Part shown: in pieces, positions 3,592-48,376 of the stretch
How the letters are laid out: each line of letters opens with the position of its first letter
How positions within the stretch are numbered: the first letter of the stretch is position 1
Source of the DNA: a virus
Length of the DNA: 48,376 nucleotides
IMG/VR virus record: IMGVR_UViG_3300013131_000068
Span: 1-48,376 of that record
Direction: 5' to 3' (one strand)
The notes under the pieces: model-generated
Database searches by the model: none
What the model saw: the letters and a program-made list of their open reading frames with translations, nothing else
Told to the model about the DNA's origin: nothing
Translations under genes and position numbers: made by a program

Positions 3592-3900
3592 TTACCACTT
3601 TACCTTATCGGCCCAATACGCAGCAGACATTTTGCCCTTTGCAATATTCTTTGCATGACGAGCTTTAAACGACTTACGTTTCGCTTTCATACGAGCTGAC
3701 TCACCTTCTTTTGGTGCACCAGCAGTCTCTGCGCCTTGTTCACCAAAGCGAATTGTCTTTACTTGATCGCCGTCCTTGGCGACCACGATGTGACTCTTTT
3801 CTGGATGAGAAGGTGTTGCCTTTGGCTTATTGAAACCCTGGACACCGGCTCTTACGAGGCGAGGATCTTTCTCTTCTATGAACTCTCTGAAACCCTGCAT
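3592..3900 (-). CDS. Small basic protein with T4 internal-protein-type leader
   Basis: A 102-residue protein. The start at MQGFREFIEE is chosen because GGAGGATAAG precedes it; longer in-frame starts have none. The leader ends in Ile8-Glu9-Glu10, the position and pattern of the cleaved capsid-targeting leader of T4 internal proteins. The body has a folded-looking stretch (SHIVVAKDGDQVKTIRFGEQG). The very basic C-terminus (RMKAKRKSFKARHAKNIAKG, then Ala-Ala-Tyr-Trp-Ala-Asp) is common in marine T4-like phages. A packaged DNA-associated role is inferred from the leader and the basic charge. Confidence 0.72.
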   Translation of the reverse strand: MQGFREFIEEKDPRLVRAGVQGFNKPKATPSHPEKSHIVVAKDGDQVKTIRFGEQGAETAGAPKEGESARMKAKRKSFKARHAKNIAKGKMSAAYWADKVKW

Positions 3901-3901
3901 C

Positions 3902-4492
3902 TTATCCTCCGAACTCGTGGCCAGCAACACGACGCATCTGCTTGTTGAACTCTTGTTGTGATGGCTTTTCTTTGTAAAGCTTGATCGAGATTTCTGGGCG
4001 TTCTTTACCTTTAATACGCCAGTTATAACCCTTCTCTTTATGCTCGGCTGAAGTAGTTTTTACAACACGACGTTTGTAGCCAGCTTCCCATGATTCAGCT
4101 TCGTCAAGATCAACTTCTTCAGTCTTGTTGTACTTCAAAGCATGAGCAGCTTTCACTTCGCGATCAGCTACCTTATCCATTGCTTTACCGGCATACTTCC
4201 AACGTTTATCAGCTTTAGCTTTGTTTTTGTCTTGAAGCGCGGCTGATGCATAGTCTCTTAGCTTTTCAGTTGATACCTCGTCGATCTGCTCGACTTCTTC
4301 TTGAGCGCTTCTAATTGCTTCTTTTGAAGGATACCCTTTATCTCCAGGTTTCGCGGGTGTCTCTCCACGTTTTCTCTTCGCGTGAATGTTAGTCCATAGG
4401 CCGTTGCCTTCTGTAACTTCGGTTGAACACTCATTACAGCAATTAGGGGTACCACAATTTGGATGTTCAAGGAATAGCTTAAATGATTTCAT
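3902..4492 (-). CDS. Modular basic protein with leader-like start and two LDE/IDE sites
   Basis: A 196-residue protein starting MKSFKLFLEH, like the capsid leaders of neighbouring genes but with His instead of Glu at position 10. A cysteine cluster (Cys13, 18, 19, 22 in NCGTPNCCNEC) could bind a metal. A GLWTNIHAKRKRGETP stretch follows. Ile-Asp-Glu72 and Leu-Asp-Glu131 resemble gp21 protease sites and separate three modules; module 2 begins VSTEKLRDYASAALQD, a repeat also found in the gene at 47638-48376. It has a basic C-terminal part. The stop overlaps the ribosome site of the next gene. Function unknown; packaging is inferred. Confidence 0.7.
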   Translation of the reverse strand: MKSFKLFLEHPNCGTPNCCNECSTEVTEGNGLWTNIHAKRKRGETPAKPGDKGYPSKEAIRSAQEEVEQIDEVSTEKLRDYASAALQDKNKAKADKRWKYAGKAMDKVADREVKAAHALKYNKTEEVDLDEAESWEAGYKRRVVKTTSAEHKEKGYNWRIKGKERPEISIKLYKEKPSQQEFNKQMRRVAGHEFGG

Positions 4493-4797
4493 AACTTACT
4501 CTTTTCTGCTTTGTGCGCCTGAGCTGCTTCCATTGAGTCAAACTCTTTGTGGTATGAACGATCGGCGTTATGTACTGCGTATGTTGCTTTCTTTGGAAAC
4601 TTGTTGTAGACTTTAGTTACGCGAAGATCTGAAGCTTCTTCGAGGCGGCGAGCTTCTTCTGCCTCCAGCATACGAACCATTTGTGTCTGACGCATGTGGT
4701 GTGCTTCGTTTACACCGCGAGATAGATTGCGCTGACGGCGATGAAAGTTAATCGCTTCAGAGAGTTCTTTATCTAATAGTTGTGTTACTTCTGTCAT
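4489..4797 (-). CDS. Conserved small helical phage protein
   Basis: A 102-residue protein with a charged, helical N-terminal two thirds (LLDKELSEAINFHRRQRNLS) and several Leu-x-Glu-Ala stretches (LSEA, LEEA), followed by a short sandwich-like end (YAVHNADRSYHKEFDSMEAA). Function not recognised. It starts 11 bases after the stop of the 86-residue leader protein and overlaps the next gene by four bases (ATGA), so it belongs to the same run of putative internal proteins. The LSEA and LEEA stretches fit the putative protease consensus, but such short motifs also occur by chance. Confidence 0.65.
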   Translation of the reverse strand: MTEVTQLLDKELSEAINFHRRQRNLSRGVNEAHHMRQTQMVRMLEAEEARRLEEASDLRVTKVYNKFPKKATYAVHNADRSYHKEFDSMEAAQAHKAEKSKL

Positions 4798-4808
4798 AAT
4801 TGGTATCC

Positions 4809-5069
4809 TTATTCTGCTGAATCAAAATCTTCTTCGTCGGCCATCTCTGACTCCATATAATCAGCAGCACCTGTGATGTAGTCTGTGGCAAGAACGATGT
4901 TGGCGATCACATGGCCTGGAAGTTCATCATCATCCTCGAGAAGAGTATGCAATCTTTTTGCCGCAGCAATAATCATTCTCAACTGAGACTTGGCCATGCC
5001 GCCTTCTTGGCCGTATTCACCATCGTTCTCGTCTTTGGCTTCAGCCAGCATTTCTTTAAAGCTTTTCAT
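4809..5069 (-). CDS. Acidic protein with perfect capsid-targeting-type leader
   Basis: An 86-residue protein starting MKSFKEMLAEA: Leu8-Ala9-Glu10 followed by Ala11, exactly the spacing of T4 internal-protein leaders and the Leu-x-Glu/Ala site also present in this phage's gp23. The remainder has a conserved-looking EYGQEGGMAKSQLRMI and helical LPGHVIANIVLATDYI, then an acidic tail, a family common in cyanophage-like myoviruses. It lies directly downstream of the 1096-residue polyprotein. Role unknown; predicted to be packaged and processed. Confidence 0.72.
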   Translation of the reverse strand: MKSFKEMLAEAKDENDGEYGQEGGMAKSQLRMIIAAAKRLHTLLEDDDELPGHVIANIVLATDYITGAADYMESEMADEEDFDSAE

Positions 5070-5078
5070 GATTACCTC

Positions 5079-8000
5079 TTAGTACTTAATGACTGGATTC
5101 GGCGTTGAGAAATTCTTCTTACGCATGATGGTCTTTGCTACGATGTCGATCTCATCATTCTTTTCGTCGTACTTGATTACGACTGGCATGTTGAGGTCTG
5201 ACTGAAGATCTTTTACTACAAGTTCAGCACCGGCTTTTCCCTTAAGAGGGTTGCCGTTCTTTGCATAGATCTTTTTGATCAAATCTGCAAGTTCTTTAAG
5301 CTTAATCTTTGGTGAGTTGCGATCATCATTCATACGCTCACCAAAGTGTTTAGTGAACTCAAAGTCAATCTTGAATTTCTCGAACATACGATCGACAAAC
5401 TTTTCGAAGTCTTTCATCTTTGATGCGGTGATTTCAACATCAGCTTCTTCTGACAAAGAACCTTCAACTTCCATCAGAGCTTCAAAGGCCTCGTTGATGC
5501 CATCAGTGATCTTTGGCTTCTTTGGTGTACCCTTTTCGCCGGGAGTTGCGGCTTTATAATTCTGAACAAGAGTATCTGTATTTTCAAATCCAGCGCCATA
5601 TGCTTCATAGTAAGCTCTAAAGTGCTTCATCTTTTTTGCACGCTTAAGAGCTGCATCGATGTGCTTTTCGACATGATCTTCATCGCCATCGTTTGATTCT
5701 GGCGGAATCACTGGAGTAGGAATAGCCTGTTCAAATGCTACACCTTTACGGGTGTGCTTCTTTTCGCCGGAATATTTTTTAAGTAATTTTTTCGTATCAG
5801 CAGGGTCGCCAATTGTCTCGTCTGGGGCCGCGTATTTAAAATCAAACTCATCTACATCACCATCGAGATCTGTATCAATGTGTTTAACATTATCTTTGTA
5901 CTGATGTTTGAATGGAACACCGATACCAAGGTGATGCTTCACCGACATCTTATCTTCTTTTACGGTCTTAGCCGACGCTATCCAATCCTTAGCAGCTGGG
6001 TTTGTTGGAAGAACCTTTGCCCACGTGCTGATCTTACGATACACGCCAGTGACTGCACCTTCGAAGTTAGATCCTTCGGAGTTGTCGATGATATACATGC
6101 GGTTGCCGAAGAAGTTCTGGAACTTACCAAGGTTCTTCTGTACACCGTTCCACATCGTCTCGACTTCTGAGTCTGGAAGCGAGCGAGCGCGCAGACGGTT
6201 ACGAGTCTTTGCGGTGGCGAGGTCGGTGTTAACAAAGATCATTGCAACTTCGTAGCCAAGCTTCTTTAGTTTCTCAGCTTGCTTCTCGATCTTGTCGTAG
6301 TCTTTACCGGTTCCGTCGATTACGAGACCAAGACGACCATTCAGTGCAAGATCTTGCTTCTTCGCCGTAAGAGCTTTTGCTTCACCACGAATCTCTTGAC
6401 CCTTTGCAGAGTAGATGTCTTCTGGGGTTGCCTTAAGTCCTGCCTTTGCAAGTGCTCTTTCGAAGATATCGTCAGAGTTGATCACTTTGAATCCGAGTGC
6501 AGTCAATGCGGTCTTACCTACGATGAACGACTTACCGGATCCTGGGCCACCTGCAAGGAATACTGCCTTGAAGATTGATGGGTCGTTAACACCTTCATCA
6601 AGTAATGTTTCAAACAAATCGTCTGCAGATTCTTTAATGCCGTGCATGTCACGGTACTTACTTGCCAACTGACGACCAGTCAGGCCAATATCGTAAGATT
6701 TTGCGATATCGAAAGCGTATGAGTTTAGGCTTGAACGATTGCCCTTTGATTTGTAGAGTCTATCAAGTGCTTCAAGCGCTCTCTTCATTATCACTTCAGT
6801 TGGTGATGGAAAGTGCTTATCTTCCTTCAGACCTTTTGCAAGGTCTGCGTCTGCAGTTGTGCGAGTCTTACCGCCAGTGATGAACGAATTGACACGTGCA
6901 TATCCCCACTGTTGCGGAGTAGTTCCTGGACGATGACCAGTTCTCCACGCAGCAACACCACGGTCAAATACTTTCTTCAGAGTGCCGTACGAGATGCCAG
7001 ACTTCTCGGCTTTTTTCTTAAGACCTTCCATTGCCTTTGCTTCGTCGAGATTAATTGAGTTATTGATATCTTCTGCAATCATAATCATTTCGAGAAGATC
7101 TGCATCATTCTCTACTTCGATTTCTTCTTGACGAACAATATGGCGGAATGCACGGAAACGGCGATCATATTTAAGCGATCCATCTCCATTATACATCATG
7201 TGATAACGGCGAGTATGGACAGATGGCTTCGTCTTAGCAGTAGCATCTCCAGGTGCAGGCTTATATGCAGCTGGATTATCGTCGTCCATCTTTGCATGTT
7301 TATTGAAGTGAGCTTTACGCTTTGTTGCAGTCGACTTACTTAGACCTGCATAGTAGTCTTCATCAAGGAAAGACTCGAACATCTGATCGATATCCTCTTT
7401 CTGCTGGTGCAGCGAAGCAACTCTTTGTAGTTCAGCCTTGCGTACCTTTGGAAGAAGTCGAGCAGCGATCTTCGCAATTGCGCCTTTTCTCTTCTCGACT
7501 TTTTGATCGATCATGATCTTTTCTGAAGGAGAAAGGTCTGCGTAATTCGCGCCTCGCTCACCTGCTACTCTTTTACGGATAAGTTCAATTGCTTTCTTAC
7601 GTGCTCTCACTGCAAGCTTTTGATTCGAAGCAATCCGATTCTTTAATCTCTCACGAGCCGCTTCCATCTTGCGCTCGTACTTTCTCATTACGAGAGCGCG
7701 CTTTCTACGCTGGGCATATGAGAGAACATATTCGTCAAGCTCAACATCTTCTGATAGTTTCATACCAGCTCTTACCATATCGTAGATGTCTTGAGCATGT
7801 GATTGAAGCTTCTTTGGAAGGCCGGATTTAAACTTTTCTTCTTCACCCTTCGAAGCGGCATCTCTCATCTTCGATGCCGACATGCCTTCAACACCATCAG
7901 CATCAGGATCTCTTTCACCTGCAGAAACAACGGCGATTGATTTCATCGTGTAGTCTTTACCGTTGTACTTGTTAAGAAGAGTTTCAAACTCTTGTACGCG

Positions 8001-8369
8001 ATCTTGTCCAACCACAAGCGTAACATCATCATACTTCGACTGAAGTTGTTTCATGAGGTCAATGATAGTTTTTGCAGGTGAAGACTGAATGATACTGCCA
8101 AATGCTTCTTTGGCAATCATGACTTTATCAGAATATGAAAGTGGATTCTTTTTTGCGTCTTGTGACTGGCTCAAGTAAATTTCGGCTTTGCCACCGATTT
8201 TACGAGCAACGTCTTGAACCTTTTTCACTAGCTTTTCATGACCAATCGTAGGAGGGTTCATTCTTCCCCAAGAGATAACGACTTTTCTCGATGAAGCTTC
8301 CTTAAGAACTGGATTTACTTCAATAACGTTCTTGTTAAGCTTCTCGTCCTTTTTAGACTTCTTTTCCAT
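5079..8369 (-). CDS. 1096-residue modular late protein: nucleotidyltransferase-like, basic, P-loop kinase-like and C-terminal modules
   Basis: Residues about 28-205 look like a nucleotidyltransferase (GRMNPPTIGH with the HxGH-type end, then MSASKMR). Residues 214-337 are extremely Arg/Lys-rich. 338-443 is a second basic module. 444-592 contains a conserved GISYGTLKKVFDRGVAAW segment. About 600-790 is a P-loop kinase-like domain (AGGPGSGKS, Lys613; later LVIDGTG), similar in style to zeta-toxin/polynucleotide kinases. An EF-hand-like DTDLDGDVDEF loop is at 832-842, and the C-terminal module has KHFGERMNDDR. Leu/Ile-x-Glu sites at 24, 213, 337, 443, 592 and 960 fall at the module borders, suggesting gp21 processing. 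The ATG has GGAGAATCTT upstream and follows a late promoter at 8427-8434. Activities are inferred. Confidence 0.85.
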   Translation of the reverse strand: MEKKSKKDEKLNKNVIEVNPVLKEASSRKVVISWGRMNPPTIGHEKLVKKVQDVARKIGGKAEIYLSQSQDAKKNPLSYSDKVMIAKEAFGSIIQSSPAKTIIDLMKQLQSKYDDVTLVVGQDRVQEFETLLNKYNGKDYTMKSIAVVSAGERDPDADGVEGMSASKMRDAASKGEEEKFKSGLPKKLQSHAQDIYDMVRAGMKLSEDVELDEYVLSYAQRRKRALVMRKYERKMEAARERLKNRIASNQKLAVRARKKAIELIRKRVAGERGANYADLSPSEKIMIDQKVEKRKGAIAKIAARLLPKVRKAELQRVASLHQQKEDIDQMFESFLDEDYYAGLSKSTATKRKAHFNKHAKMDDDNPAAYKPAPGDATAKTKPSVHTRRYHMMYNGDGSLKYDRRFRAFRHIVRQEEIEVENDADLLEMIMIAEDINNSINLDEAKAMEGLKKKAEKSGISYGTLKKVFDRGVAAWRTGHRPGTTPQQWGYARVNSFITGGKTRTTADADLAKGLKEDKHFPSPTEVIMKRALEALDRLYKSKGNRSSLNSYAFDIAKSYDIGLTGRQLASKYRDMHGIKESADDLFETLLDEGVNDPSIFKAVFLAGGPGSGKSFIVGKTALTALGFKVINSDDIFERALAKAGLKATPEDIYSAKGQEIRGEAKALTAKKQDLALNGRLGLVIDGTGKDYDKIEKQAEKLKKLGYEVAMIFVNTDLATAKTRNRLRARSLPDSEVETMWNGVQKNLGKFQNFFGNRMYIIDNSEGSNFEGAVTGVYRKISTWAKVLPTNPAAKDWIASAKTVKEDKMSVKHHLGIGVPFKHQYKDNVKHIDTDLDGDVDEFDFKYAAPDETIGDPADTKKLLKKYSGEKKHTRKGVAFEQAIPTPVIPPESNDGDEDHVEKHIDAALKRAKKMKHFRAYYEAYGAGFENTDTLVQNYKAATPGEKGTPKKPKITDGINEAFEALMEVEGSLSEEADVEITASKMKDFEKFVDRMFEKFKIDFEFTKHFGERMNDDRNSPKIKLKELADLIKKIYAKNGNPLKGKAGAELVVKDLQSDLNMPVVIKYDEKNDEIDIVAKTIMRKKNFSTPNPVIKY

Positions 8370-8425
8370 AAGATTCTCCTCACATCGTGGGTTTGCCTTA
8401 GCCTGACCACAAGCTTCTATTTAAC

Positions 8426-9106
8426 CTATTTATAGTTTTGCTGAAATGAATCGATGAATTTGTAGTTTACAGCAGCCGACTTACTCCAAAGCGTCGATTC
8501 ACGAAGCCAACCAATAGCTGGAGTTGGATCCATAATTGCAAGAGGAGTAGCAGTAATTCGTTGATGCCGAATAAAATATGCGTTATCGATACACCCAAGA
8601 ATACCCTTGGTTTCTATTTCTTTCACCATCGCTCTTGCAGTATTTGGAGTCAACGCATATGCATGAGCTCCTTCATGCGCGTCTAATTCTCTTACACCCT
8701 GAGGAGGACCTGCCTTTATGTGGTCATATCTTGAAGTATCTGTTAACTTATAGCCGAGTACTACGATTCTATCATCTGGTATATCAACGCTTGGATTGTG
8801 CAGCATGATTGCATCATGTTCGAGTACCACTGCTGCCTCATTACCGTCTGCGATCTTTTTCCATATTGCTGCATGACCAGCAGAACAACATTGTGGATTA
8901 TTCGGTCTTGTATCGTGTTGAAATAAATGAAGAGTAGCTGTATTGATCTTAGTTTTTGACCAAGCATCATAAACGGACATGTTCGAATAACCTTCGAAAT
9001 ACTCCCAATCTAATCCAACTGCTTCACAGGACTTAGCACAAATCCTTGCGTACTCTCTTGATATTGGATTATCAATCGTTAAAATATAAGCTCTAGTTGG
9101 TTTCAT
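8426..9106 (-). CDS. Glycosyltransferase, family 25-like
   Basis: A 226-residue protein starting MKPTRAYILTID; its ATG overlaps the end of the upstream methyltransferase gene by 14 bases. It has features of GT25 (LPS-type) glycosyltransferases: an N-terminal YILTID strand, the conserved AGHAAIWKKIADG segment, and VVLEHDAIML, where the family usually has a Glu-Asp-Asp metal motif (here Glu-His-Asp). A late YALTPNTARAMV stretch also fits. It probably transfers a sugar to a phage or host glycan; the substrate cannot be told. The last codons, TAT AAA TAG, double as the late promoter of the next gene. The start has a weak ribosome site and is probably translationally coupled. Confidence 0.68.
   Translation of the reverse strand: MKPTRAYILTIDNPISREYARICAKSCEAVGLDWEYFEGYSNMSVYDAWSKTKINTATLHLFQHDTRPNNPQCCSAGHAAIWKKIADGNEAAVVLEHDAIMLHNPSVDIPDDRIVVLGYKLTDTSRYDHIKAGPPQGVRELDAHEGAHAYALTPNTARAMVKEIETKGILGCIDNAYFIRHQRITATPLAIMDPTPAIGWLRESTLWSKSAAVNYKFIDSFQQNYK
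8427..8434 (-). promoter_or_regulatory. Late promoter TATAAATA inside the end of the glycosyltransferase gene
   Basis: Perfect match to the T4 late promoter. It spells Tyr-Lys-stop of the upstream gene and lies about 58 bases before the ATG of the 1096-residue protein gene. Confidence 0.75.
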
Positions 9107-9650
9107 ATTCGATAAGGGCCATCTGCACTGGGTTATTATGATAAGCATACTTGTATGTTTCTACAATCTTAAATCCTTCACACGTAGAAGCGTATGCGCT
9201 TGGTACACCATACATCGCAAAGTCGTCGATAAGAATGTTTTTCAACTTCAGATGTTTAGCCATTTGTATATCATTGATTGCGCCATGTACACTGTGATCG
9301 CCATCGATGTTAATAATATCTACACCTTCTGGAAATTGAAGAGTGCCATTCTTAAGACCTTTATAGTAATCTACAGTATTCATTTCAATATAGCTGAAAC
9401 GATTTCCAAATTTTTCTTTCAGAGATTCAACCGCTACCCGAGTATAAGGATGAGCTCCAATATCAATAGAGGTGACCTTTACATCTTCAAACATCGTCAT
9501 AATGATAGCAGCCGAATGACCCGCATTTGTACCGATTTCAAAAATATGTTGAAAGTTTGTGCGAGCTTTAACATCTTTCCAGAGATTAAGAACCTCAGTA
9601 GATGGTGTCATGTGGCCTTCAGTCGCGTGAGGCAAAAATGATAAATCCAT
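9093..9650 (-). CDS. Class I SAM-dependent methyltransferase
   Basis: A 185-residue protein; start MDLSFLPH chosen because AAGGAGTTATT lies directly upstream. The SAM-binding motif I is FEIGTNAGHSAAII (about 35-48), followed by an acidic strand end SIDIG and a later DIINIDGDHSVHGAINDI. This matches the Methyltransf_24-type (O-/small molecule or sugar) group. It is coupled to a GT25-like glycosyltransferase, so a joint job in glycan decoration is a reasonable inference; the substrate is unknown. Upstream are a late-type AATAAATA box and a hairpin in the leader (9672-9693). Confidence 0.75.
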   Translation of the reverse strand: MDLSFLPHATEGHMTPSTEVLNLWKDVKARTNFQHIFEIGTNAGHSAAIIMTMFEDVKVTSIDIGAHPYTRVAVESLKEKFGNRFSYIEMNTVDYYKGLKNGTLQFPEGVDIINIDGDHSVHGAINDIQMAKHLKLKNILIDDFAMYGVPSAYASTCEGFKIVETYKYAYHNNPVQMALIEYETN

Positions 9651-9671
9651 AATAACTCCTTCATAAAACAA

Positions 9672-9693
9672 AAGGAGAGCCGAAACTCTCCTT
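9672..9693 (-). terminator. Intrinsic terminator-like hairpin between promoter and methyltransferase gene
   Basis: AAGGAGAG / CTCTCCTT stem of 8 bp, loop TTTCGG, followed on the minus strand by TTGTTTTATG. It looks like a strong terminator for the upstream genes, yet the AATAAATA box at 9704-9711 is upstream of it, so it would also lie in the late leader. Confidence 0.7.
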
Positions 9694-9703
9694 GACTCAA
9701 TTC

Positions 9704-9711
9704 TATTTATT
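9704..9711 (-). promoter_or_regulatory. Late promoter-like AATAAATA
   Basis: Seven of eight matches to TATAAATA, in the gap between the 46-residue gene and the methyltransferase gene. The predicted start would be just before the hairpin at 9672-9693. Confidence 0.45.
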
Positions 9712-9719
9712 ATAATCGA

Positions 9720-9860
9720 TCAGTACCAACGGATTTTGCGGCGATCAAGTTCTTGCATTCTGCGCTCAAGGTCGACGTGATCGTATGACTCTGCAAGATA
9801 TTTGTGTGCCCAAGATTTTTCGTCTAATCGTTCGAAAAATTTAACGATTTTCTTCCACAT
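9720..9860 (-). CDS. 46-residue DUF3563-like small protein
   Basis: A small ORF encoding MWKKIVKFFERLDEK at its start, then a YLAES-x-DHVDLERRMQELDRR core. The 'YLA.S.D..DLE.RM.ELDR' pattern is that of a short family (DUF3563-like) seen in proteobacteria and their phages; function unknown. GGTGGCAAG precedes the ATG, which overlaps the stop of a 19-codon ORF. The family link is from memory. If right, it hints at a proteobacterial host. Confidence 0.65.
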   Translation of the reverse strand: MWKKIVKFFERLDEKSWAHKYLAESYDHVDLERRMQELDRRKIRWY

Positions 9861-9919
9861 CACTTGCCACCTTTATTCTTTTCAATGGGTTTAAAATATG
9901 AATGATCTGGATCTATCAT
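9860..9919 (-). CDS. Tiny 19-residue ORF linking two genes
   Basis: Starts MIDPDHSYFKPIEKNKGGK. It overlaps the upstream 76-residue gene by an ATGA and its stop overlaps the next ATG (TGATG), which suits a translational-coupling peptide. It may simply be a link in the ribosome path; coding is uncertain. Confidence 0.35.
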   Translation of the reverse strand: MIDPDHSYFKPIEKNKGGK

Positions 9920-10146
9920 TTGCGACCTGCCTTGTAAATGTTAGCAGCCATATTTGTCACATAATCTAGCGATTCATGTGGATACTCAAACTTGAGTGAG
10001 TGAGCAAGCTCTTTAATTTTTCTTTTGTCTGATTCTTCAGAAGGAAGTGCCTTTAGCATAAACTCGATTGAGCGAAGGATTCCATTTGATATTGAGATGC
10101 TTAATGGGGTAAGCATTTTAGCAGATTCATTTACTGCAGCGAACAT
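9916..10146 (-). CDS. Hypothetical 76-residue protein
   Basis: Start MFAAVNESAKMLTPL with AGAAAAAGAAATG upstream. The helical middle (NGILRSIEFMLKALPSEESD) and C-terminal ESLDYVTNMAANIYKAGRK look like a small globular or helical-bundle protein. Not recognised. It heads a small unit with the 19- and 46-residue ORFs behind a GATAAATA box at 10186-10193, and so is probably late. Confidence 0.55.
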   Translation of the reverse strand: MFAAVNESAKMLTPLSISISNGILRSIEFMLKALPSEESDKRKIKELAHSLKFEYPHESLDYVTNMAANIYKAGRK

Positions 10147-10185
10147 TTCTTTTTCTCCGTATACTGTACCTTTGTCATACGGATA

Positions 10186-10193
10186 TATTTATC
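10186..10193 (-). promoter_or_regulatory. Late promoter-like GATAAATA
   Basis: Seven of eight matches to TATAAATA, 40 bases before the 76-residue gene, in the non-coding gap 10147-10242. The identical variant occurs at 517-524. Confidence 0.45.
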
Positions 10194-10242
10194 ACAAAAA
10201 GTCGACAGTTTACATTGACATTTAGGAATAGCCGGTAGTCAC

Positions 10243-11535
10243 TTAAGTAACTTCTTGCCAACTCATTGAACCAAGTACATCATCTCCAGAACCATTTGAA
10301 CAACACGCTAAGGTAAATGTGAAATAAGTCCCAGTAAAACTGTTTCTCTCTAACTGGTACTTAAATAAATCACTTTGTGAAGGAATTGATCCGGTTGATT
10401 GCGAAGTCGTAGCAAAATATCCTGTATCCGTATCTTCACCGCCGCTCATTGCTGTGCCAGTGATATTATATTGAACGTTACTATCAGCTAAATCAACCCA
10501 AGTGCCAGCCGTGATTGTTGCGTCTTTTGTTAATTTATAACGATAGTTGCCGTTAGTCACCCCAAGTAATGAAAAACTTGTAGGTATTACTATACAATCT
10601 GGTGTAGTCGATTTTAATCTAATAGAGATGATTGGATAAAATGTATTTGCGGAAGTTAGATCTCTGGCTGCATTTGTCGCTAAACCTAATGATCTAGATC
10701 TGCCACGTATCTCGTATCCACCTTCTGAAATTACTGTTGAACATACTTGTTTAAGTGTTGAATTTGATGCAGTTGCTCCAATGTTTTCTATCTCAAACCT
10801 TAATGGTAAACACGCAGTGGTAATATATGTCGTCGTGATTATGTTTGAGTGATGAAAACTGTGACAATGTACAAAAGCACCGTTTATAACAAAGCCCATT
10901 CTAACAGTGCCTAAGCCCAACCATTCTAAATCTGTGAACAAAATCTGTGCTTTAGATATATCTAAGGTAAGACCACTTGGTCCAGTACCATCAAGTTTAT
11001 CAATATTCCAATCGGCCTTTTCAGCAATAGTGTTAACGACACTACCGGTCACTGAACTACGTTCTACAAAGCGAATATTCGATCCATTTAATTCAAGGTA
11101 GTGCCCATTGTTGGTGCCATAATATCCAACACGTTGTCTTAAATTGGCCTTTGCCGCATTCATTACAAATGTTGTTAAGATCAGTAAACTTTTACCTGGC
11201 TGATAAGCAAATACTCTTTTTGATTCTCTGTATACATAGTCACCAGATGCTGTACCTATGCTAAGATCTACAAGTCCTTGATCAGAGTTAAACGTAGCTG
11301 TGCTACTGCCGCCAGCGGTTGCTGTTGCAAACTTGCCATTATCTGAATACCTATGAAAGCTATCGAACAATGTAAATGGATTTGAAACTCTTGCTCGGCC
11401 AAACGCATCAACTGCAACACCAGTTGGGTTCGACGAGCCAACTAGATTACCATACTGATCGGCTAACATTACTGTTTCAAACAGCGTCTTATTATCACTG
11501 GTGTACTGATGAGTATTTTTGTTAAACTGTGCCAT
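10243..11535 (-). CDS. Virion structural protein (beta-rich, fiber/tail-associated type)
   Basis: A 430-residue Ser/Thr/Gly/Asn-rich protein. Near its N-terminus it has GVAVDAFGRARVSNPFTLFD followed by SFHRYSDNG, a sequence I associate with a structural protein of cyanophage-like T4-type phages. The rest is predicted beta-rich with repeated strand-turn patterns and no enzyme motif. The ATG overlaps the upstream stop (TAATG), with AAGGA eleven bases before it; an earlier in-frame ATG at 11547 has no room for a ribosome site. It is expressed from the 14476 late promoter together with three putative packaged proteins. The virion role is inferred from composition and family memory. Confidence 0.7.
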   Translation of the reverse strand: MAQFNKNTHQYTSDNKTLFETVMLADQYGNLVGSSNPTGVAVDAFGRARVSNPFTLFDSFHRYSDNGKFATATAGGSSTATFNSDQGLVDLSIGTASGDYVYRESKRVFAYQPGKSLLILTTFVMNAAKANLRQRVGYYGTNNGHYLELNGSNIRFVERSSVTGSVVNTIAEKADWNIDKLDGTGPSGLTLDISKAQILFTDLEWLGLGTVRMGFVINGAFVHCHSFHHSNIITTTYITTACLPLRFEIENIGATASNSTLKQVCSTVISEGGYEIRGRSRSLGLATNAARDLTSANTFYPIISIRLKSTTPDCIVIPTSFSLLGVTNGNYRYKLTKDATITAGTWVDLADSNVQYNITGTAMSGGEDTDTGYFATTSQSTGSIPSQSDLFKYQLERNSFTGTYFTFTLACCSNGSGDDVLGSMSWQEVT

Positions 11536-12764
11536 TAACGCTGCCATCCTTTGATAATTTCAGGCGAAAAGTTTGCACGGCTAAACTGAAGTCGATCGAC
11601 TAGTTTTACTGCATTTTTGCCCATGTGATCGATTACAACAAATCCTTCTTGCTCTGTGACTTTATAGCCATCAGCAGTTTTAAGGAACGTTCCAATCTGT
11701 TTTGCTTTATCTAGTTTTCGTACAATGAGATGCTTGGCATCAACAATGAGATTATACATATCAAAGATTTTCACAATTTCAGTTTTAGGTGTATTTGCGA
11801 AGTACTTCATGACTTCAGCACGTTTCGCTTCACCTGCGGCCTTTGCCTTATCTGTTGCTTTCTTATCGATCTCTTTCTGATAGAAGTCATGCACGTACTT
11901 CGTAAGACCATCGACAAACTGAGTTGTATTACCAATACGTTCGCCGACTCGCACCTTTGAGTTAATATATGCTTTTACTCGAATGAGCAGATCGTCATTG
12001 TCAGAAATACCATCAAGAGAAGATCTCTTCAAGCCAGAAAAGATCTTTCCAGCTTTCGACAAGAGTTCAGTAATTTCTTTCGTTTCAGCGGCGTTGAAGT
12101 TTGCCGAACCAGAAACGTCTTTATAGGATGCATCTACTGACCAGACCGATTTTGTTTTCTTGAGGCCGCTTGCGATCTCCTCTCCAAAACTCGCTGACAT
12201 TGATTCAAAAGAGTTTCCTCTGTATGTAGTGTGCCAGACCACACCGATTCTTGAGGCAAGGATTTCACGAGCAAGTTGGCTGTTCTTCGGTATCGCGTAA
12301 ACAATCGTGTTAGGATGGAAAGTAATATACGGTTCTCCATCAATATCCACTTCTCGTATATCTTCTTTCGAATATAAGAAGTCACCTTGCACCACTCCTG
12401 TAATGCCGAGCTTTGAAAGTTCTTCAAGAGCAACTTTCAGCTTAGCGTTCAAATCACCTGATGTATCTGCATCAATATCAGCTGGTGTCTTATACACCTT
12501 TGGGTCCTTATTGAAGATACCCTTCTTTGCCACAAAGAATTTACCATCGCTTGGATCAATGCCGGCAAAGACTGCAGGAGCACCATCCCACTTGATCGTT
12601 ACGTTAACAGACTTTGCAGAGCTTCCTGCTAGCATGTCACGAAGAGAACGTAGATAGTTAATAGATTGACGAACACCTTCGACGCCAGCATTTAAGATGT
12701 TATCCTCGAGATGCTCCATGTGAGTGTTCTTTGATTCTACGAGAAACCGGTCGAATGATAGCAT
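11535..12764 (-). CDS. Ligase-superfamily (KxDG) nucleotidyltransferase-like protein with capsid-type leader
   Basis: A 409-residue protein. The leader MLSFDRFLVE ends in Leu8-Val9-Glu10, matching T4 internal-protein leaders; this fixes the second of two adjacent ATGs as the start. The body shows the order of covalent nucleotidyltransferase motifs: TIKWDGAPAVF (motif I, Lys-x-Asp-Gly), VVQGDFLYS (motif III-like, Asp replacing Glu), EQEGFVVIDHMG (motif IV) and NAVKLVDR (motif V). It may be an RNA/DNA ligase or another adenylyltransferase; the Asp substitution makes activity uncertain. It is coupled by TGATG to a HAD phosphatase upstream. Its late promoter is at 14476. Confidence 0.75.
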   Translation of the reverse strand: MLSFDRFLVESKNTHMEHLEDNILNAGVEGVRQSINYLRSLRDMLAGSSAKSVNVTIKWDGAPAVFAGIDPSDGKFFVAKKGIFNKDPKVYKTPADIDADTSGDLNAKLKVALEELSKLGITGVVQGDFLYSKEDIREVDIDGEPYITFHPNTIVYAIPKNSQLAREILASRIGVVWHTTYRGNSFESMSASFGEEIASGLKKTKSVWSVDASYKDVSGSANFNAAETKEITELLSKAGKIFSGLKRSSLDGISDNDDLLIRVKAYINSKVRVGERIGNTTQFVDGLTKYVHDFYQKEIDKKATDKAKAAGEAKRAEVMKYFANTPKTEIVKIFDMYNLIVDAKHLIVRKLDKAKQIGTFLKTADGYKVTEQEGFVVIDHMGKNAVKLVDRLQFSRANFSPEIIKGWQR

Positions 12765-13369
12765 CATACTTTCCTTACTGATCCGTCATGGTGAACGTGA
12801 TATGCCTCGAACGATATGTCCGGATACTGCTTTGCAAGAGCCTTAAACATCGTAATGTTTGACATCGCGTCATCAAAGAAGCGTACTCTCTCGTACTCTC
12901 CCTTGCGTAGATATTTATGGAATATGAAGCGTTTGTTCTTTGCGCTCGATCCTAGACCTAAGTTACCAGCTCTTTCAACATACACCTTATCTATATCTAT
13001 TCCATATCTACGGAATGTGTCAAGGAACTTTTTCTTATCGTCGAAGTCCGATCTAGCAGTCACGATAATAACTCTAGACCCAGCATTTACCGCATTGCGT
13101 ATAATTGCTTTTGCCTTTTGAACCATCTTCATGATAGGAACAGAGGTATTCTGGAAGATCTCAGCTGAAGTAAATTCACCGAAGTCGTATGACTCGCCAT
13201 CCTTAAGCTTATATGTATTAAAAGCTTGGTTATCAAGAGACTGAACTACTTTTCCGTCCTTCACTACCTTAACTAAAGCCTTAGTCTGAAAAAGTGTCTC
13301 ATCTATGTCAAAGATCGTTAGACCTTTACCACGAGCTTGTTCTGTTATAAACGACTTAAATGATAGCAT
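12764..13369 (-). CDS. HAD-superfamily phosphatase with capsid-type leader
   Basis: A 201-residue protein. The leader MLSFKSFITE ends in Ile8-Thr9-Glu10, again the spacing of T4 internal-protein leaders, and Ile-Thr-Glu also occurs at the gp21 N-terminal site. HAD motifs follow: IFDIDETLF (motif I, nucleophile and acid/base Asp), IIVTARSDF (motif II), a Lys-rich segment NKRFIFHKYL (motif III), and RFFDDAMSN (motif IV). Such compact HAD proteins include polynucleotide 3'-phosphatases and nucleotidases; the substrate is unknown. It lies between a nuclease-like gene and the ligase-like gene with TAATG and TGATG overlaps. Confidence 0.75.
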   Translation of the reverse strand: MLSFKSFITEQARGKGLTIFDIDETLFQTKALVKVVKDGKVVQSLDNQAFNTYKLKDGESYDFGEFTSAEIFQNTSVPIMKMVQKAKAIIRNAVNAGSRVIIVTARSDFDDKKKFLDTFRRYGIDIDKVYVERAGNLGLGSSAKNKRFIFHKYLRKGEYERVRFFDDAMSNITMFKALAKQYPDISFEAYHVHHDGSVRKV

Positions 13370-14451
13370 TATGATACAACCCTAAATTTAATGTCGTTTG
13401 GATACTCACCACCCTTTGAGTTTCGAATCTCAATAAGATATTTTTGATGAGCGTTTTCGCAATGAATGCGAGTTGATTTCGATGTGATTCCTGGATAGTC
13501 GATTCGTGTCACTTTTATGCTTTGAGATAACTCATCGAGTTTAGCACGGTCGAGCCAGAACACTTTCCAACCACCAGGTTTTTTACGAACATAGAAGTAG
13601 TTCAAGCCCCATACTTGCTCAAAGATCTTTTGAATTTTTGAGGAATCTACCGCAGGGGTCTTGAATTTCTTGCGAGTATCAGGATTGATATTATTTCGGA
13701 TATCAAACCCGCTTTGAACTTTATTCAGATCAACTCCAAATGTACGAAGAAATTCTGCGCCTTCAGAATCTTCGACAAGATCACCCTTTGAATTGAATAA
13801 ACTTTCACCGCCCGGCCACGCACTTACAGTTGCACCGCTTATATCCTTAAGCGAGATGTACCATTTCTTTCCTGTGCTATCAGTAAGAACGATATCGCCA
13901 ATAACAGCATTCAAATCTTCAAGTGGTATACCAGTCTTTCGTGTCGATCCCTTGCGCTGATTTACTTTTACAATTTCCGTATTTGCGAATGGTGGGTAAG
14001 CTTCTTCCATCTGTCTTACGAGCTTAACAAAGCTTTGTTCAGACGCGCCCATGAAAAACATATTGAGGTTTTCAACTGTTTTAGTCTCGAAGTTTTCACC
14101 TTTGTTTGCCCCGCGAGCAATGACAGCATCAACGATTACACCCTTATAGGTAAACGTATAGCTTGGGTATTTTGAACTGTTCGGAGATATATCGTTGTAT
14201 TTAGCGTCGAAGATCTTATTACCGCGTAAACCAGCTTTCAGATGAGCTACAAATGATTCAGATGTATCAACGGTCTTTACGATCAATTGCATTCTGAATT
14301 CGCGCGTAGTTTTATCTTTACCAGCCTTTCCCATCGGCAAAGCTGGCGCCACTTGATAGTTCTTGTTTTTCCCGATATTATTCAAAAGATCGGCGATCTC
14401 TTTATAAACATCAGATTTTGATTTAGCAAAGCTAGAAAAGGGCTTAACCAT
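13369..14451 (-). CDS. Putative PD-(D/E)XK-type nuclease or related protein
   Basis: A 360-residue protein. The segment VIGDIVLTDSTGKKWYISLKD (read from about residue 177) has the Asp ... strand ... Ser-x-Lys pattern of PD-(D/E)XK nucleases, with Glu residues in an earlier GENFETKTVENL helix. It lacks other recognisable motifs. The C-terminal third is basic and aromatic (NYFYVRKKPGGWKVFWLDR). The start MVKPFSSFAKSK only loosely resembles the neighbouring leaders and lacks the Glu10. GAGAGG before the ATG and a perfect TATAAATA at 14476-14483 mark it as first gene of a late unit. The nuclease call is tentative. Confidence 0.55.
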   Translation of the reverse strand: MVKPFSSFAKSKSDVYKEIADLLNNIGKNKNYQVAPALPMGKAGKDKTTREFRMQLIVKTVDTSESFVAHLKAGLRGNKIFDAKYNDISPNSSKYPSYTFTYKGVIVDAVIARGANKGENFETKTVENLNMFFMGASEQSFVKLVRQMEEAYPPFANTEIVKVNQRKGSTRKTGIPLEDLNAVIGDIVLTDSTGKKWYISLKDISGATVSAWPGGESLFNSKGDLVEDSEGAEFLRTFGVDLNKVQSGFDIRNNINPDTRKKFKTPAVDSSKIQKIFEQVWGLNYFYVRKKPGGWKVFWLDRAKLDELSQSIKVTRIDYPGITSKSTRIHCENAHQKYLIEIRNSKGGEYPNDIKFRVVS

Positions 14452-14475: not shown

Positions 14476-14483
14476 TATTTATA
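14476..14483 (-). promoter_or_regulatory. Late promoter TATAAATA
   Basis: Perfect T4 late consensus, 25 bases before the 360-residue gene and directly after the terminator at 14490-14511. It drives the nuclease-like, HAD, ligase-like and structural genes. Confidence 0.8.
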
Positions 14484-14820: not shown

Positions 14821-15073
14821 AAAAGCCAAGGGCGACTCCTGTGAAGAACGTACGGCTATCAGCTGGAATATAATTTATGTGAAGATAAAAGTCAATCTCT
14901 TCTTCATCGGTAAGAATCATTCCACGAGAAGGATACGGCATAAAGCCATCCATGTCCCAGTTGATCGCATCTTGCATTGATAGGTTGTAATCACGCATCA
15001 TCTCAAGAATGCGCTTATAATAGATATCAGTAGGATCGCGGCTTTTAGTGAATGTAGCACCAAAGTAGTTCAT
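14750..15073 (-). CDS. Hypothetical acidic-tailed protein
   Basis: A 107-residue protein starting MNYFGATFTKSRDPTDIYY. The middle is acidic (TDEEEIDFYLHINYIP) and the tail highly charged (EDKKEETDQEDDRS). It starts by ATGA overlap with the 54-residue gene. Not recognised. The charged tail lies exactly in the overlap with the next gene, so it may be under less constraint than the N-terminal part. Confidence 0.55.
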   Translation of the reverse strand: MNYFGATFTKSRDPTDIYYKRILEMMRDYNLSMQDAINWDMDGFMPYPSRGMILTDEEEIDFYLHINYIPADSRTFFTGVALGFYDYTLEDKKEETDQEDDRSTSTP

Positions 15074-15234
15074 GCGGATGCTCGCTCGTATACAGTTTCG
15101 ACAAAGGAATACGGTGCACCACTCAAGCGCATTGCGGTGAGCAGCATATTATCTACATCGAATACTTCTCGAGCAGCCTCCATGATGCGAGCTTCGGTGA
15201 TAGCTTCTTCGATAAGTTCACGTACAGTTTGCAT
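15070..15234 (-). CDS. Hypothetical 54-residue protein
   Basis: Start MQTVRELIEEAITEA chosen because AAGGAACAACGA precedes it, while the longer in-frame start lies inside the previous gene's end. All-helical, acidic, with no motif (EAAREVFDVDNMLLTAMRL). The stop overlaps the next ATG (ATGA). It belongs to the run of small genes behind the 15447-15475 promoter. Confidence 0.55.
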   Translation of the reverse strand: MQTVRELIEEAITEARIMEAAREVFDVDNMLLTAMRLSGAPYSFVETVYERASA

Positions 15235-16105: not shown

Positions 16106-16113
16106 TATAAATA
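16106..16113 (+). promoter_or_regulatory. Plus-strand late promoter TATAAATA
   Basis: Perfect late consensus followed after three bases by GTATGGGT. It lies 31 bases before the GTG start of the endonuclease-like gene and is the only perfect plus-strand one seen. Confidence 0.75.
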
Positions 16114-16143: not shown

Positions 16144-16791
16144 GTGGTAGAGCATTCGCCATATACATATTTAGTGGGTTGGACCAAACATGATCTTTGG
16201 TACTATGGCGTGCAGTATAATTCAAAGGCTCGACCAGAGAATCTTTGGACTACATATTTTACATCTTCTAAGATAGTCAAGACCATAAGAGAAAAATATG
16301 GCGAACCTGATGTAATTGAAGTACGAAAAATCTTTAGTAATAAAGACGACGCAAGATTGTGGGAACATAAAGTCTTACGTAGAATTGGTGCAAGAAAGTC
16401 TAAACGATGGTTGAACCAAACCGACAATTTACATCATTATCCTAGAAGTCCAAAATCACCTTGGAATAAGGGTAAAAAACTATCGGCCGAGCAAAAAGAA
16501 AAGATCCGTGATAGTCTTAAAGGTCGAACTCTGTCAGACGAACACAAAGCAAAGATGTCAGTTGCACAACAAAAACGTGACAAGTCTATATCAGATGAAA
16601 CCAGACTCAAAATGAGAAATTCAAAGGTCGGAAAGAATACGACACCCGAGACAAAGGAAAAGATGAGAATTGCAAAACTTGGGATAAAGAAAGAACTAGT
16701 TAAATGCCCATACTGTGATAAAGGTGTCTCACCACATCTTTTTAATCGCTGGCACAACAAAAAATGCAAATTTTTTGAAGCGATTACGTAA
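16144..16791 (+). CDS. Homing-endonuclease-like protein (degenerate GIY-YIG plus NUMOD-type repeats)
   Basis: A 215-residue protein, the only sizeable plus-strand gene. N-terminal YTYLVGWTKHDLWYYGVQY resembles a divergent GIY...YIG core, followed by an Arg, a TSSKIV segment and DDARLWEHKVL with the expected Glu. The C-terminal half has repeated SAEQKEKIRDSLKGRTLSDE-type segments and SDEHKAKMS, SDETRLKM, TPETKEKM, typical NUMOD3-like DNA-contacting repeats. It ends with CPYCDKGVSPHLFNRWHNKKC, a Cys/His zinc-finger-like motif. The GTG start has GGAG eight bases upstream. The family are free-standing mobile nucleases of T4-like phages. Activity is unproven because the catalytic core is degenerate. 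Confidence 0.75.
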   Translation: MVEHSPYTYLVGWTKHDLWYYGVQYNSKARPENLWTTYFTSSKIVKTIREKYGEPDVIEVRKIFSNKDDARLWEHKVLRRIGARKSKRWLNQTDNLHHYPRSPKSPWNKGKKLSAEQKEKIRDSLKGRTLSDEHKAKMSVAQQKRDKSISDETRLKMRNSKVGKNTTPETKEKMRIAKLGIKKELVKCPYCDKGVSPHLFNRWHNKKCKFFEAIT

Positions 16792-45735: not shown

Positions 45736-46653
45736 TTAAGATTTACTAAATTTGTTTAGCGATGCGACGTAAGCCGAAACCGAAGGATCGAGTACAGGAG
45801 TTTTTACTTCTTCTACTTCCTCTTCAAGGACTTCTGCTTGATCTTCTGCACGAACAACTTGCTCGGTGAAGTATGATTCTTTGATGGTTTCAAGCTTCTT
45901 TGCAAAGTCATCAACTGACTCATAAGAAACACCTTCTGCAAGAACCTTAAAGCGCTCTGCATCAGTAGCTACCATGCCTTCAGTGAAGTGTGCAAGTGCT
46001 GCATTCTTCTGAAGCTCTTCTTTTTCTGCACGCTCTGCAAGAAGCTCTTCGAATAGAGCATTGTACTTAGCGTTTGACTGAGCAACTTCTTCTTCCATTG
46101 CAGCAAGTGCTTCAAGCTCTTCGTCTGCAACTTCGATATTATGATCTTCAACAAGTGACTTAAGACCAGCGATGATCGACTCAGCTACTTCAACTTTGTA
46201 GCCAGACTCAAGAGCGACTTCGTTTTCTTTCATCCAGTTCTCAACTACGTAGTCAAGGTATGAATCAACTTTGTCGGTAAGGTCTTCTACAATCGCTTCA
46301 ACCTGCTCAGCAAGATCAGCTTCGAACTGCTCTTCAAGCTCTGCGCGGGCTGCTTCTACTTTCTCGTGAAGTGCTGCTTCAAAAATAGTAGTAGTCTTAG
46401 TCTTGAAGTCTTCGGAAAGATCTGCATCACCAAAGATAGCTTCGATCATTTCATGAAGACCGGCATTGTTGCTACCCTGTGGGGTCTTAACATTCTTTTC
46501 AATGTTGTCTGCTTGTGCAGTCGAGTCAGATTTGAAAGCATCTGCTTTGCGCTTTTTTACAGCGCCGCCAGCTGGTGTAACTGGATCGGCTGACATGGAG
46601 TCTTCGCCAGTTGCTTTTGCTTCTTCTAACCCTTTTTCTAGATTTACATCCAT
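45736..46653 (-). CDS. 22: Prohead core scaffold protein gp22
   Basis: A 305-residue, very acidic, Glu/Ala-rich coiled-coil protein directly before gp23, as T4 gp22 (269). MDVNLEKGLEEAKA carries a Leu9-Glu-Glu11/Ala site near the start, and SVSAYVASLNKFSKS ends the protein like other gp22 C-termini. It forms the inner scaffold and is cut to small peptides by gp21. AAAGGAG ribosome site, late promoter at 46692-46699. Confidence 0.88.
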   Translation of the reverse strand: MDVNLEKGLEEAKATGEDSMSADPVTPAGGAVKKRKADAFKSDSTAQADNIEKNVKTPQGSNNAGLHEMIEAIFGDADLSEDFKTKTTTIFEAALHEKVEAARAELEEQFEADLAEQVEAIVEDLTDKVDSYLDYVVENWMKENEVALESGYKVEVAESIIAGLKSLVEDHNIEVADEELEALAAMEEEVAQSNAKYNALFEELLAERAEKEELQKNAALAHFTEGMVATDAERFKVLAEGVSYESVDDFAKKLETIKESYFTEQVVRAEDQAEVLEEEVEEVKTPVLDPSVSAYVASLNKFSKS

Positions 46654-46719: not shown

Positions 46720-47379
46720 TTACATGCTCTTTAAGAATTTTTCGAACATCTTTAAAGCAGCGGCTTCATCGATCTGCTTCGATTTTTTTACTTCTTCTTC
46801 AATTTGATCAAATGTGTTTGCCACTGTCCATGAAGAAGCCGCAACGTCGTAGATCCATTCTACGCCTTCCATGATACCTTTTACAAAAGCATCTGGAGCT
46901 GAAGGATCTGCGACAATATCACCTGCCGTAGCAAGCATAAAGTCATTTTGTACTTCCATGATGCCCTTTTCATTTGGCTTCACAGATCCCATTCCACGGG
47001 AAGAAATTCCTAATTGCGCACCACTATCGATAAGTCCTTTTACGACATCACCCATAGGGGTTTTAGTAATTTTAGCTCTACCTACAACGTTCGAACCATC
47101 AGCTTTTAATTCTGTGAATAGGTGTGAAACTCTGTCGAGGTTAATAGTTGGTCCTTGTGGGTGACCAAGTTCACCAAAGGCGCGATTCTTCGATACATAG
47201 TTTTCATTGTAGCGATTCATTTCGCGCATTAAAACGTTTGATGGGTAAATACGACCATTACGGTTCTTAATATCACCCTGCATGATGATACCTTCGATGT
47301 AATAGTTCTTTTCACCCTTTTCGGTCGCTTCAGTAATATAATGAACTTCTTCGACAATATCTTTAATGAGTAAGGCCAT
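46720..47379 (-). CDS. 21: Prohead core protease gp21
   Basis: A 219-residue serine protease (T4 212). Catalytic-region landmarks: NRAFGELGHPQGP with His73 and AQLGISSRGMGSV with Ser126/127 and following Arg-Gly; GDIVADPSAPDAFV carries the conserved Asp. The N-terminus EVHYITE/ATEKG shows an Ile15-Thr-Glu17/Ala self-processing site. It cleaves gp23, gp22 and internal proteins after Leu/Ile-x-Glu during head maturation. AAGGAG ribosome site; late promoter in the end of the upstream gene. Confidence 0.95.
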   Translation of the reverse strand: MALLIKDIVEEVHYITEATEKGEKNYYIEGIIMQGDIKNRNGRIYPSNVLMREMNRYNENYVSKNRAFGELGHPQGPTINLDRVSHLFTELKADGSNVVGRAKITKTPMGDVVKGLIDSGAQLGISSRGMGSVKPNEKGIMEVQNDFMLATAGDIVADPSAPDAFVKGIMEGVEWIYDVAASSWTVANTFDQIEEEVKKSKQIDEAAALKMFEKFLKSM

Positions 47380-47396: not shown

Positions 47397-47645
47397 TTAT
47401 TTATAAGCCAATGGAGTAGCCCATACTGTTGTATTAGCCGAGAGTTTATCTGTTCGAAGTTTTTCCATAATCTCAACAAATCCTGCCGGAATTGTAATAG
47501 TACCAATTACTGTATCAGCAGAATCAGAATAAGTAACAAGAGCTTCTGTTGGTGCGTAAACACGCACCAACGTTGAGTTATGAACGGTATTCGCAGTCGA
47601 GATATTTACTTGCGTACCAGTCGGCTTGAGGATAATATCAACCAT
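47397..47645 (-). CDS. Small beta-rich structural protein upstream of gp21
   Basis: An 82-residue protein starting MVDIILKPTGTQVNISTANT, with VIGTITIPAGFVEIMEKLRT and TTVWATPLAYK. Alternating strands and no charge bias; a family seen beside head genes in cyanophage-like myoviruses, function unknown. The ATG overlaps the upstream gene by eight bases. Its final codons TAT AAA TAA are also the gp21 late promoter. Confidence 0.65.
   Translation of the reverse strand: MVDIILKPTGTQVNISTANTVHNSTLVRVYAPTEALVTYSDSADTVIGTITIPAGFVEIMEKLRTDKLSANTTVWATPLAYK
47398..47405 (-). promoter_or_regulatory. Late promoter TATAAATA of gp21, built from Tyr-Lys-stop codons
   Basis: Perfect late consensus coinciding with the last two codons and stop of the 82-residue gene; 19 bases before the gp21 ATG. 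Confidence 0.8.
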
Positions 47646-48376
47646 GCTGCACCGCTTCCTTTGCAAATGCTAGGATTTGATTAAATTCTTTTTTACTAGA
47701 TAACACTTGATCCTGCATTTTGGATTGATTAGCGCTATTAAGAAGTTTAGACAAGTCATTTAGTGCATCAACATCTTCACGACTAAGAGTTACTGAAGAA
47801 CCATCTTTGAGCTTCATCACACCGATCTTGAAAGCTTCATCAAGTTCGACTTCTTCTTTTGTAGCAAGAACCTTTGCTCTACCAGTCTGCTTAGCAAATG
47901 CTAGGTCACGACCAAACTTACGCTTACGATACTTATCAGAACCATCGTCACCTGATGGCTGATCCGCAAAAGCTTTCTGACGGTATGCGTCGAGCTTCTT
48001 ATCGGATACTTCGTCAAGCTCTACAGACTCTCTAGCAGGAACTTTTGCCTTACCACCAATGTCATATGCTTTCTTACCAGCAGTCTCAATACCTTTTTCA
48101 CGAGACTTCATTTTCTTGTACTGAGAAACGTTCTTATCCATATCCTTTGAATTGAACGGTTTCATCACCTCTGATCTACGCTCTTTATTATCAGCAGTAG
48201 CTTTACGGATATATGAACGAGCAAGGTCGCGTGAGATTTCATCGAGACCTTCAGCTTCTTCTTTAGTAAGACGATCAGTTGCCTTTTTTATGTTTCTAAG
48301 TCTGTCCATAGACTTAGAAAATGTCTTAGAACTTCCAGTGTGGCCGTATTCAGCTGCACGACTTGCTGCATCAGAA
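47638..48376 (-). CDS. 5'-truncated modular basic protein with repeated LDE-x-S modules
   Basis: The reading frame is open to the window edge, so the start is outside; at least 245 residues are seen (SDAASRAAEYG ... at the edge). From the first Met (48309) onward, Leu-Asp-Glu sites at 24, 100 and 158 separate modules; two modules begin ISRDLARSYIRKATAD and VSDKKLDAYRQKAFAD, the same repeat as in the gene at 3902-4492. The last module, after EEVELDEAF, is a small alpha/beta domain. Sites fit gp21 processing (Leu-x-Glu). Location next to gp21 suggests a core or internal head protein. Function unknown. Confidence 0.72.
   Translation of the reverse strand, partial: SDAASRAAEYGHTGSSKTFSKSMDRLRNIKKATDRLTKEEAEGLDEISRDLARSYIRKATADNKERRSEVMKPFNSKDMDKNVSQYKKMKSREKGIETAGKKAYDIGGKAKVPARESVELDEVSDKKLDAYRQKAFADQPSGDDGSDKYRKRKFGRDLAFAKQTGRAKVLATKEEVELDEAFKIGVMKLKDGSSVTLSREDVDALNDLSKLLNSANQSKMQDQVLSSKKEFNQILAFAKEAVQHG

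Follow-up and report, generated by a model that had tools for sequence, protein, structure and literature searches.

Ten-residue leaders of probable T4 capsid-targeting type on enzymes and small proteins of a viral genome fragment

The window, i.e., the whole stretch of DNA analysed here (48,376 nucleotides), is a 48 kb IMG/VR fragment of a T4-like phage (IMGVR_UViG_3300013131_000068). Megablast of the window against phages returned no match; the nearest annotated relative by the DUF6267 protein was the complete phage C48C1 (55% identity), which was used with others for the motif counts. Five genes, all on the minus strand, start with a common ten-residue leader followed by unrelated bodies (Table 1). 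Residues 4 and 7 were aromatic or bulky in all five leaders (F4; F/M7), and F4, F/M7, L/I8 and E10 occurred together in four. The initial annotation had placed [LI]-x-E at residue 10 in four of the five leaders, and this was confirmed; the exception is gene 3902-4492. The coordinates and peptides of that annotation for the five genes were also right, while the weak candidate at 15070-15231 and the polyprotein at 5079-8369 had been overlooked. It reads E9-H10 there, so the cleavage glutamate of gene 3902-4492 is not in register; H10 is retained in the close relative L004, and the product is predicted to be targeted to the head but uncut at residue 10. The leader of gene 3592-3900 is retained in L017; the body, besides phrog_7595, matched a "minor head protein and DNA pilot" family less strongly. 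The 360-residue product of 13369-14451 contains a conserved GDIVL...W-ISLKD stretch with a nuclease-like look, and its AF2 model was poor (pLDDT 53).

Table 1. Leader genes, head genes and late promoter words of the window (a slash marks the predicted or calibrating cut).
Position	Strand	Feature	Details
3592..3900	-	leader MQGFREFIEE/K + small basic body	phrog_7595
3902..4492	-	leader MKSFKLFLEH; F4, F7, L8 kept, E10 absent	body sites QIDE/V, DLDE/A
4809..5069	-	leader MKSFKEMLAE/A + acidic body, 76 residues	kept in L004, L058, L223
5079..8369	-	putative cargo polyprotein, 1096 residues	between leader genes
8427..8434	-	T4-type late promoter word YATAAATA	65 bases upstream of polyprotein operon (ends 5069-3592)
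11535..12764	-	leader MLSFDRFLVE/S + DUF6267 body	PF19782
12764..13369	-	leader MLSFKSFITE/Q + HAD phosphatase	
13369..14451	-	first gene of HAD/DUF6267 operon	leader MVKPFSSFAK, degenerate, no L/I-x-E
14476..14483	-	T4-type late promoter word	32 bases upstream of 14451, operon holding 13369-11535
15070..15231	-	weak extra candidate leader MQTVRELIEE/A	V4/L7/I8/E10; ORF of 54 residues
44405..45688	-	gp23 major head protein	GSFLTE/A, calibrates the motif
45736..46653	-	gp22 scaffold	gene order; GLEE/A close to N-terminus
46720..47379	-	gp21 prohead protease	Peptidase_S77, PF03420, E 3.6e-34

The cleavage sites proposed to calibrate the motif internally, FLTE/A in gp23, YITE/A in gp21 and GLEE/A in gp22, are all present in the window, and the gp23 site has the same residues as that of T4 gp23 (GSFLTE/A). 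The T4-type late promoter word YATAAATA was found 11 times on the minus strand and once on the plus strand. These words lie 26-46 bases upstream of gp21, gp22 and gp23 and also precede both leader operons, which supports the earlier description of the leader genes as probably late. The sole plus-strand word, at 16106, is 38 bases before a plus-strand gene (16144-16791) within a minus-strand region, whose product has, by eye, the look of a GIY-YIG/NUMOD-type homing endonuclease. Among leader contigs, to which the count is confined, the S77 protease was present in all six of at least 131 kb; shorter leader fragments were often without it, as expected.

In T4, the internal proteins IPI, IPII and IPIII carry a capsid-targeting sequence that is cut by gp21 (PMC9026906; PMC12373910), and they block type IV restriction (PMC12373910). 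According to amber-suppressor work on IPIII, targeting depends mainly on residues 4 and 7 and processing on residues 8 and 10; D10 stops processing and leaves targeting unaffected, and the gp21 cleavage motif is L/I-x-E (reviewed in PMC9026906). An alignment of 40 DUF6267 proteins followed the same register: only F/L at position 4, only F/Y at 7, only L/I at 8 and E10 in all 40, with positions 2, 3, 5, 6, 9 and 11 variable and the conserved body beginning at K12-N13. In the AF2 model of the DUF6267 protein, residues 1-15 had very low confidence and the body was folded. Synonymous codons differed at leader positions 4, 7, 8 and 10, so selection acts on the protein rather than on the DNA. The leaders thus share with those of the T4 internal proteins a ten-residue N-terminal form, aromatic residues at 4 and 7, L/I8, E10, unrelated bodies and a gp21-type protease; in contrast to T4, they appear on large enzymes too and mostly have F rather than Y at position 4. 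Leaders of this kind are also common among T4-like phages from the sea and from fresh water. T4 Alt is a packaged enzyme as well, a head-borne and ejected ADP-ribosyltransferase with cleaved ends, but it has a shorter propeptide of its own (7 residues) and no ten-residue leader. In phiKZ and SPN3US, many head proteins are cut after E by the prohead protease; the propeptide motif differs from the present leader, and these phages are not known to have a shared ten-residue leader at the protein start.

Several bodies occur elsewhere without the leader. Homologs of the 3592-3900 body in podophage P12053L (VPSKKKDPRL...) and siphophage S-CBS2 (MAPKKDARL...) start at the predicted cut of the window protein, MQGFREFIEE/KDPRL, and a leaderless DUF6267 protein in L162 starts with MKNTHLEH. 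The leader is absent from the DUF6267 gene of cyanophages S-SM1 and Syn9 but present on the adjacent cytidylyltransferase gene; the proposal that all DUF6267 proteins are tagged was dropped because of these two phages. The slot upstream of the DUF6267 gene is variable, its products being mostly leader-bearing with different bodies. Judged from these comparisons, the leader is an add-on to bodies that exist elsewhere without it and begin there at the predicted cut.

The motif was found at 71 of 865 distinct gene starts compared with 3 of 4200 internal methionines, in a set consisting of the window and 80 loci fetched with the DUF6267 protein and thus picked by one tagged family. When the DUF6267 family was left out and sequence from cyanophages and C48C1 was included, E10 was present in 46 of 65 gene starts showing the hydrophobic pattern against a background of 8.6% (p 2e-34), and a chance origin of the leader pattern is therefore excluded. 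When 2.9 million viral contigs were scanned at the DNA level with equal degeneracy for E10 and K10, TAAGGAG-ATG-leader gave 25 stretches with E10 and 1 with K10, and GGAG-ATG-leader gave at least 120 and 18, respectively. The scan yielded at least 122 leader ORFs; among the matches listed, 115 were of at least 40 residues and the leader preceded at least 57 unrelated body families. A control scan of T4 returned IPII, IPIII and gp61.1, the latter a 54-residue protein (L086:18966-19130) with the perfect leader MKTFKEFIKE/D. The first 50 kb of HTVC008M contained no strict leader.

The leader-bearing bodies in the window and its relatives include several enzymes. The DUF6267 body has the ligase-like motifs KWDGAP (motif I, KxDG), EG and KLVDR, of which KWDGAP is invariant in all 40 proteins, as are EG and K387, and it likely belongs to the nucleotidyltransferase/ligase superfamily. 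RNA and DNA ligases aligned to the DUF6267 model from residue 58 (K of KWDG) with middling VIA scores (Z 4-6) that did not exceed those of unrelated helical proteins; Foldseek of the model gave nothing significant, and the sequence had no match in PDB. The product of 12764-13369 contains HAD motif I (DxDxT) as FDIDETLF and matched phrog_415 (polynucleotide kinase; PNK-type phosphatase family) at E 2.5e-10, and its Pfam HAD matches were weak. A tblastn search with this protein in phages found one remote match only, and phmmer against PDB found nothing. On other contigs, the leader was found on the anti-CBASS protein Acb1 (PF23474, 2.8e-23, L117), a CCA-adding enzyme (PF01743, 1.1e-18, L206), a zeta-type kinase, a cytidylyltransferase and a protein of L162 with a weak RNA 2'-phosphotransferase/ART match. 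These assignments suggest a repair and counter-defence theme of the tagged cargo. The Acb1 leader is MKTFREYLAE/A (L117:2104-2571, on a 21.8 kb contig), and the T4 homolog (57B) has none. The CCA-adding enzyme/poly(A) polymerase belongs to a run of adjacent leader or leader-like genes (L206:136-6075, minus strand) beside T4-like helicase and recombinase genes. The annotated start of the C48C1 cytidylyltransferase (L083:13448-14857), MNPPTIGH, seems too late, and an in-frame upstream GTG adds the leader IKNFSQYLLE.

The product of 5079-8369 comprises an NMNAT-like cytidylyltransferase, a basic helical module, DUF5824, a P-loop kinase of the zeta-toxin type and C-terminal modules. Phmmer of the kinase against PDB gave weak adenylate kinase matches only. 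In C48C1, L105 and L110, the cytidylyltransferase, basic module, DUF5824 and kinase are separate leader-bearing genes. These stand-alone genes predict junctions after window residues 25, 214, 443 and 592, each within one residue of an L/I-x-E end (residues 24, 213, 443 and 592); 4.4% of the residues of the protein lie this close to such an end. For the DUF5824 gene of C48C1 and the basic-module gene of Melnitz, the junction alignment was 2-3 residues off. At the kinase junction, different kinases share L/I-x-E/G[VI]xDP even where the preceding sequence is unrelated. The protein has the appearance of a polyprotein, with modules that other genomes encode as individual tagged genes joined here at L/I-x-E sites, and gp21 could separate them. 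The other possibility, somewhat less probable and still a serious one, is that it acts uncut as a single multidomain protein with L/I-x-E sites present by chance. The motif is short and common (16 sites in 1096 residues), so single sites prove little, and multidomain "polyvalent" head proteins offer a precedent (Iyer et al., PMC5512222). Less easily reconciled with an uncut protein are four independent module boundaries within one residue of a site, at a chance of about 4% each, and the retention of L/I-x-E at the kinase junction in unrelated contexts. Polyvalent proteins resemble the present product in having several domains, a role in conflict and predicted packaging; in contrast, gp21 leaders or L/I-x-E module junctions are not described for them in those parts of the source (PMC5512222).

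Leader-bearing proteins were also looked up in the published virion proteomes of relatives, which list detected proteins and do not report N-termini. In S-CREM2, 52 of 219 genes were detected in the virion (PMC10665884), including all four genes with a leader in the exact T4 register (P 0.003): a SAM hydrolase (MKDFDSFLEE), an APH-like kinase with a GTG start (MKRFDAFLTE), a cytidylyltransferase (MKNFSSFLTE) and gp136 (MQTFSMFFSE). The gp13 protein (MKDLHSFLTE) was detected as well. When the motif was relaxed by one residue, an undetected S-CREM2 gene (MNFKKWFKE, "pectate lyase") was also picked (Fisher p 0.012). All four detected enzymes of this phage that are neither structural nor lytic carry the motif somewhere in residues 1-32 (P 1e-5, a post hoc test). 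One of them, the Cas9-annotated nuclease gp12 (L093:7704-10313), has it at residue 19 (LRFASFMAE/A) and not at the start. The S-SM1 virion holds the T4-GC190 cytidylyltransferase (PMC3037559), which starts with MKKFSAFLNE/A. Cytidylyltransferase/NMNAT and kinases recur in the virions of S-CREM2, S-SM1 and S-SCSM1, and the S-CREM2 and S-SM1 proteins bear the leader. Packaging of tagged enzymes in S-CREM2 and S-SM1 is supported by published MS; the cyanophage proteome studies differ in that their authors named no targeting signal, encapsidation having been proposed for S-CREM2 without one and contamination or co-purification left possible (PMC10665884).

The residue-by-residue match, the gp21-type (S77) protease and the leader enzymes in the virions of relatives support the initial reading of the leaders as T4-type capsid-targeting sequences. 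Very probably, they bind the core, are cut by gp21 after E10 and let the body enter the host with the DNA. Late in infection, the leader helix would dock on the scaffold core through its F4/F7 face, and the tagged proteins would thereby be incorporated as the prohead assembles. Cleavage by gp21 after E10 would then free the body inside the head, and by analogy with T4 the freed body would enter the host with the DNA. Within this phage group, the tag would be an exchangeable unit carried by enzymes as well as by small proteins (the HAD phosphatase, the nucleotidyltransferase-like DUF6267 protein and others), and the neighbouring polyprotein would provide more enzyme modules with L/I-x-E joints that gp21 could split. 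Cutting at E10, ejection, polyprotein processing and an early anti-host or repair function are what we infer.

It is unlikely that the leader targets without being cut, staying on as a core-binding helix while E10 does something else. Such a role would suit gene 3902-4492, which keeps F4, F7 and L8 but lacks E10, and agrees with the separate effect of D10 in T4, which blocks processing and not targeting (PMC9026906); against it, no residue is more strongly conserved than E10 (40/40 DUF6267 proteins), the leader site equals the gp23 site of the same genome, and leaderless homologs begin at the predicted cut. Very unlikely is an intracellular role of the leader, with the tagged proteins in published virion preparations being contaminants: contamination was named as possible by the S-CREM2 authors, but contaminants would not be expected to segregate with a ten-residue motif, and the exact-register genes were all detected compared with 52 of 219 overall. 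The resemblance among leaders and the clustering of tagged genes would also be expected of a shared N-terminus derived from recent duplication or exon-like shuffling and functionless now; this is highly improbable, given conservation only at positions 4, 7, 8 and 10 with other positions and codons differing, at least 57 unrelated body families, and an E10 to K10 ratio of 25:1. Translation control through the nucleotide sequence around the start codon (e.g., RegA sites), instead of a peptide signal, is barely credible: T4 has known signals at gene starts, but synonymous codons vary at the four key positions and the same residues occur at polyprotein module junctions, away from any start.

Knowledge of leaders on small T4 internal proteins goes back to the 1990s, and T4 also provides the leader mechanism; new in this variant are the enzyme-rich cargo and the putative polyprotein form. 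Searches of the open-access literature found no paper besides the T4 review linking "capsid targeting" to cyanophages, none applying T4-type leaders to cyanophage or other marine enzymes, and none naming DUF6267. We consider it an evenly balanced question whether capsid targeting by these leaders extends to a general, swappable head-loading tag by which marine and lake phages of the T4 type arm their particles with preformed enzymes for counter-defence and RNA repair (Acb1, an NMNAT-like NAD enzyme, a kinase, a phosphatase, a ligase-like protein, a CCA-adding enzyme and a SAM hydrolase), in part joined in a head polyprotein that is split by gp21. A tag of this kind would give a sequence-only rule for head-carried phage proteins that enter the cell first, and would account for the recurrent enzymes found without explanation by others in cyanophage virions. 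Hundreds of uncharacterised genes would become candidates for proteins acting before phage gene expression, the stage at which defences such as restriction, CBASS, NAD depletion or tRNA cleavage act. If true, the splitting of a polyprotein by the prohead protease would be an unusual route for the simultaneous delivery of several enzymes.

Two minus-strand genes of the window, 47638-48375 in the slot upstream of gp21 and 3902-4492, contain repeated ELDE-[VI]S-x-K-x-L-x-x-Y modules beside L-D-E or I-D-E, and their products may be multiply cut core proteins.
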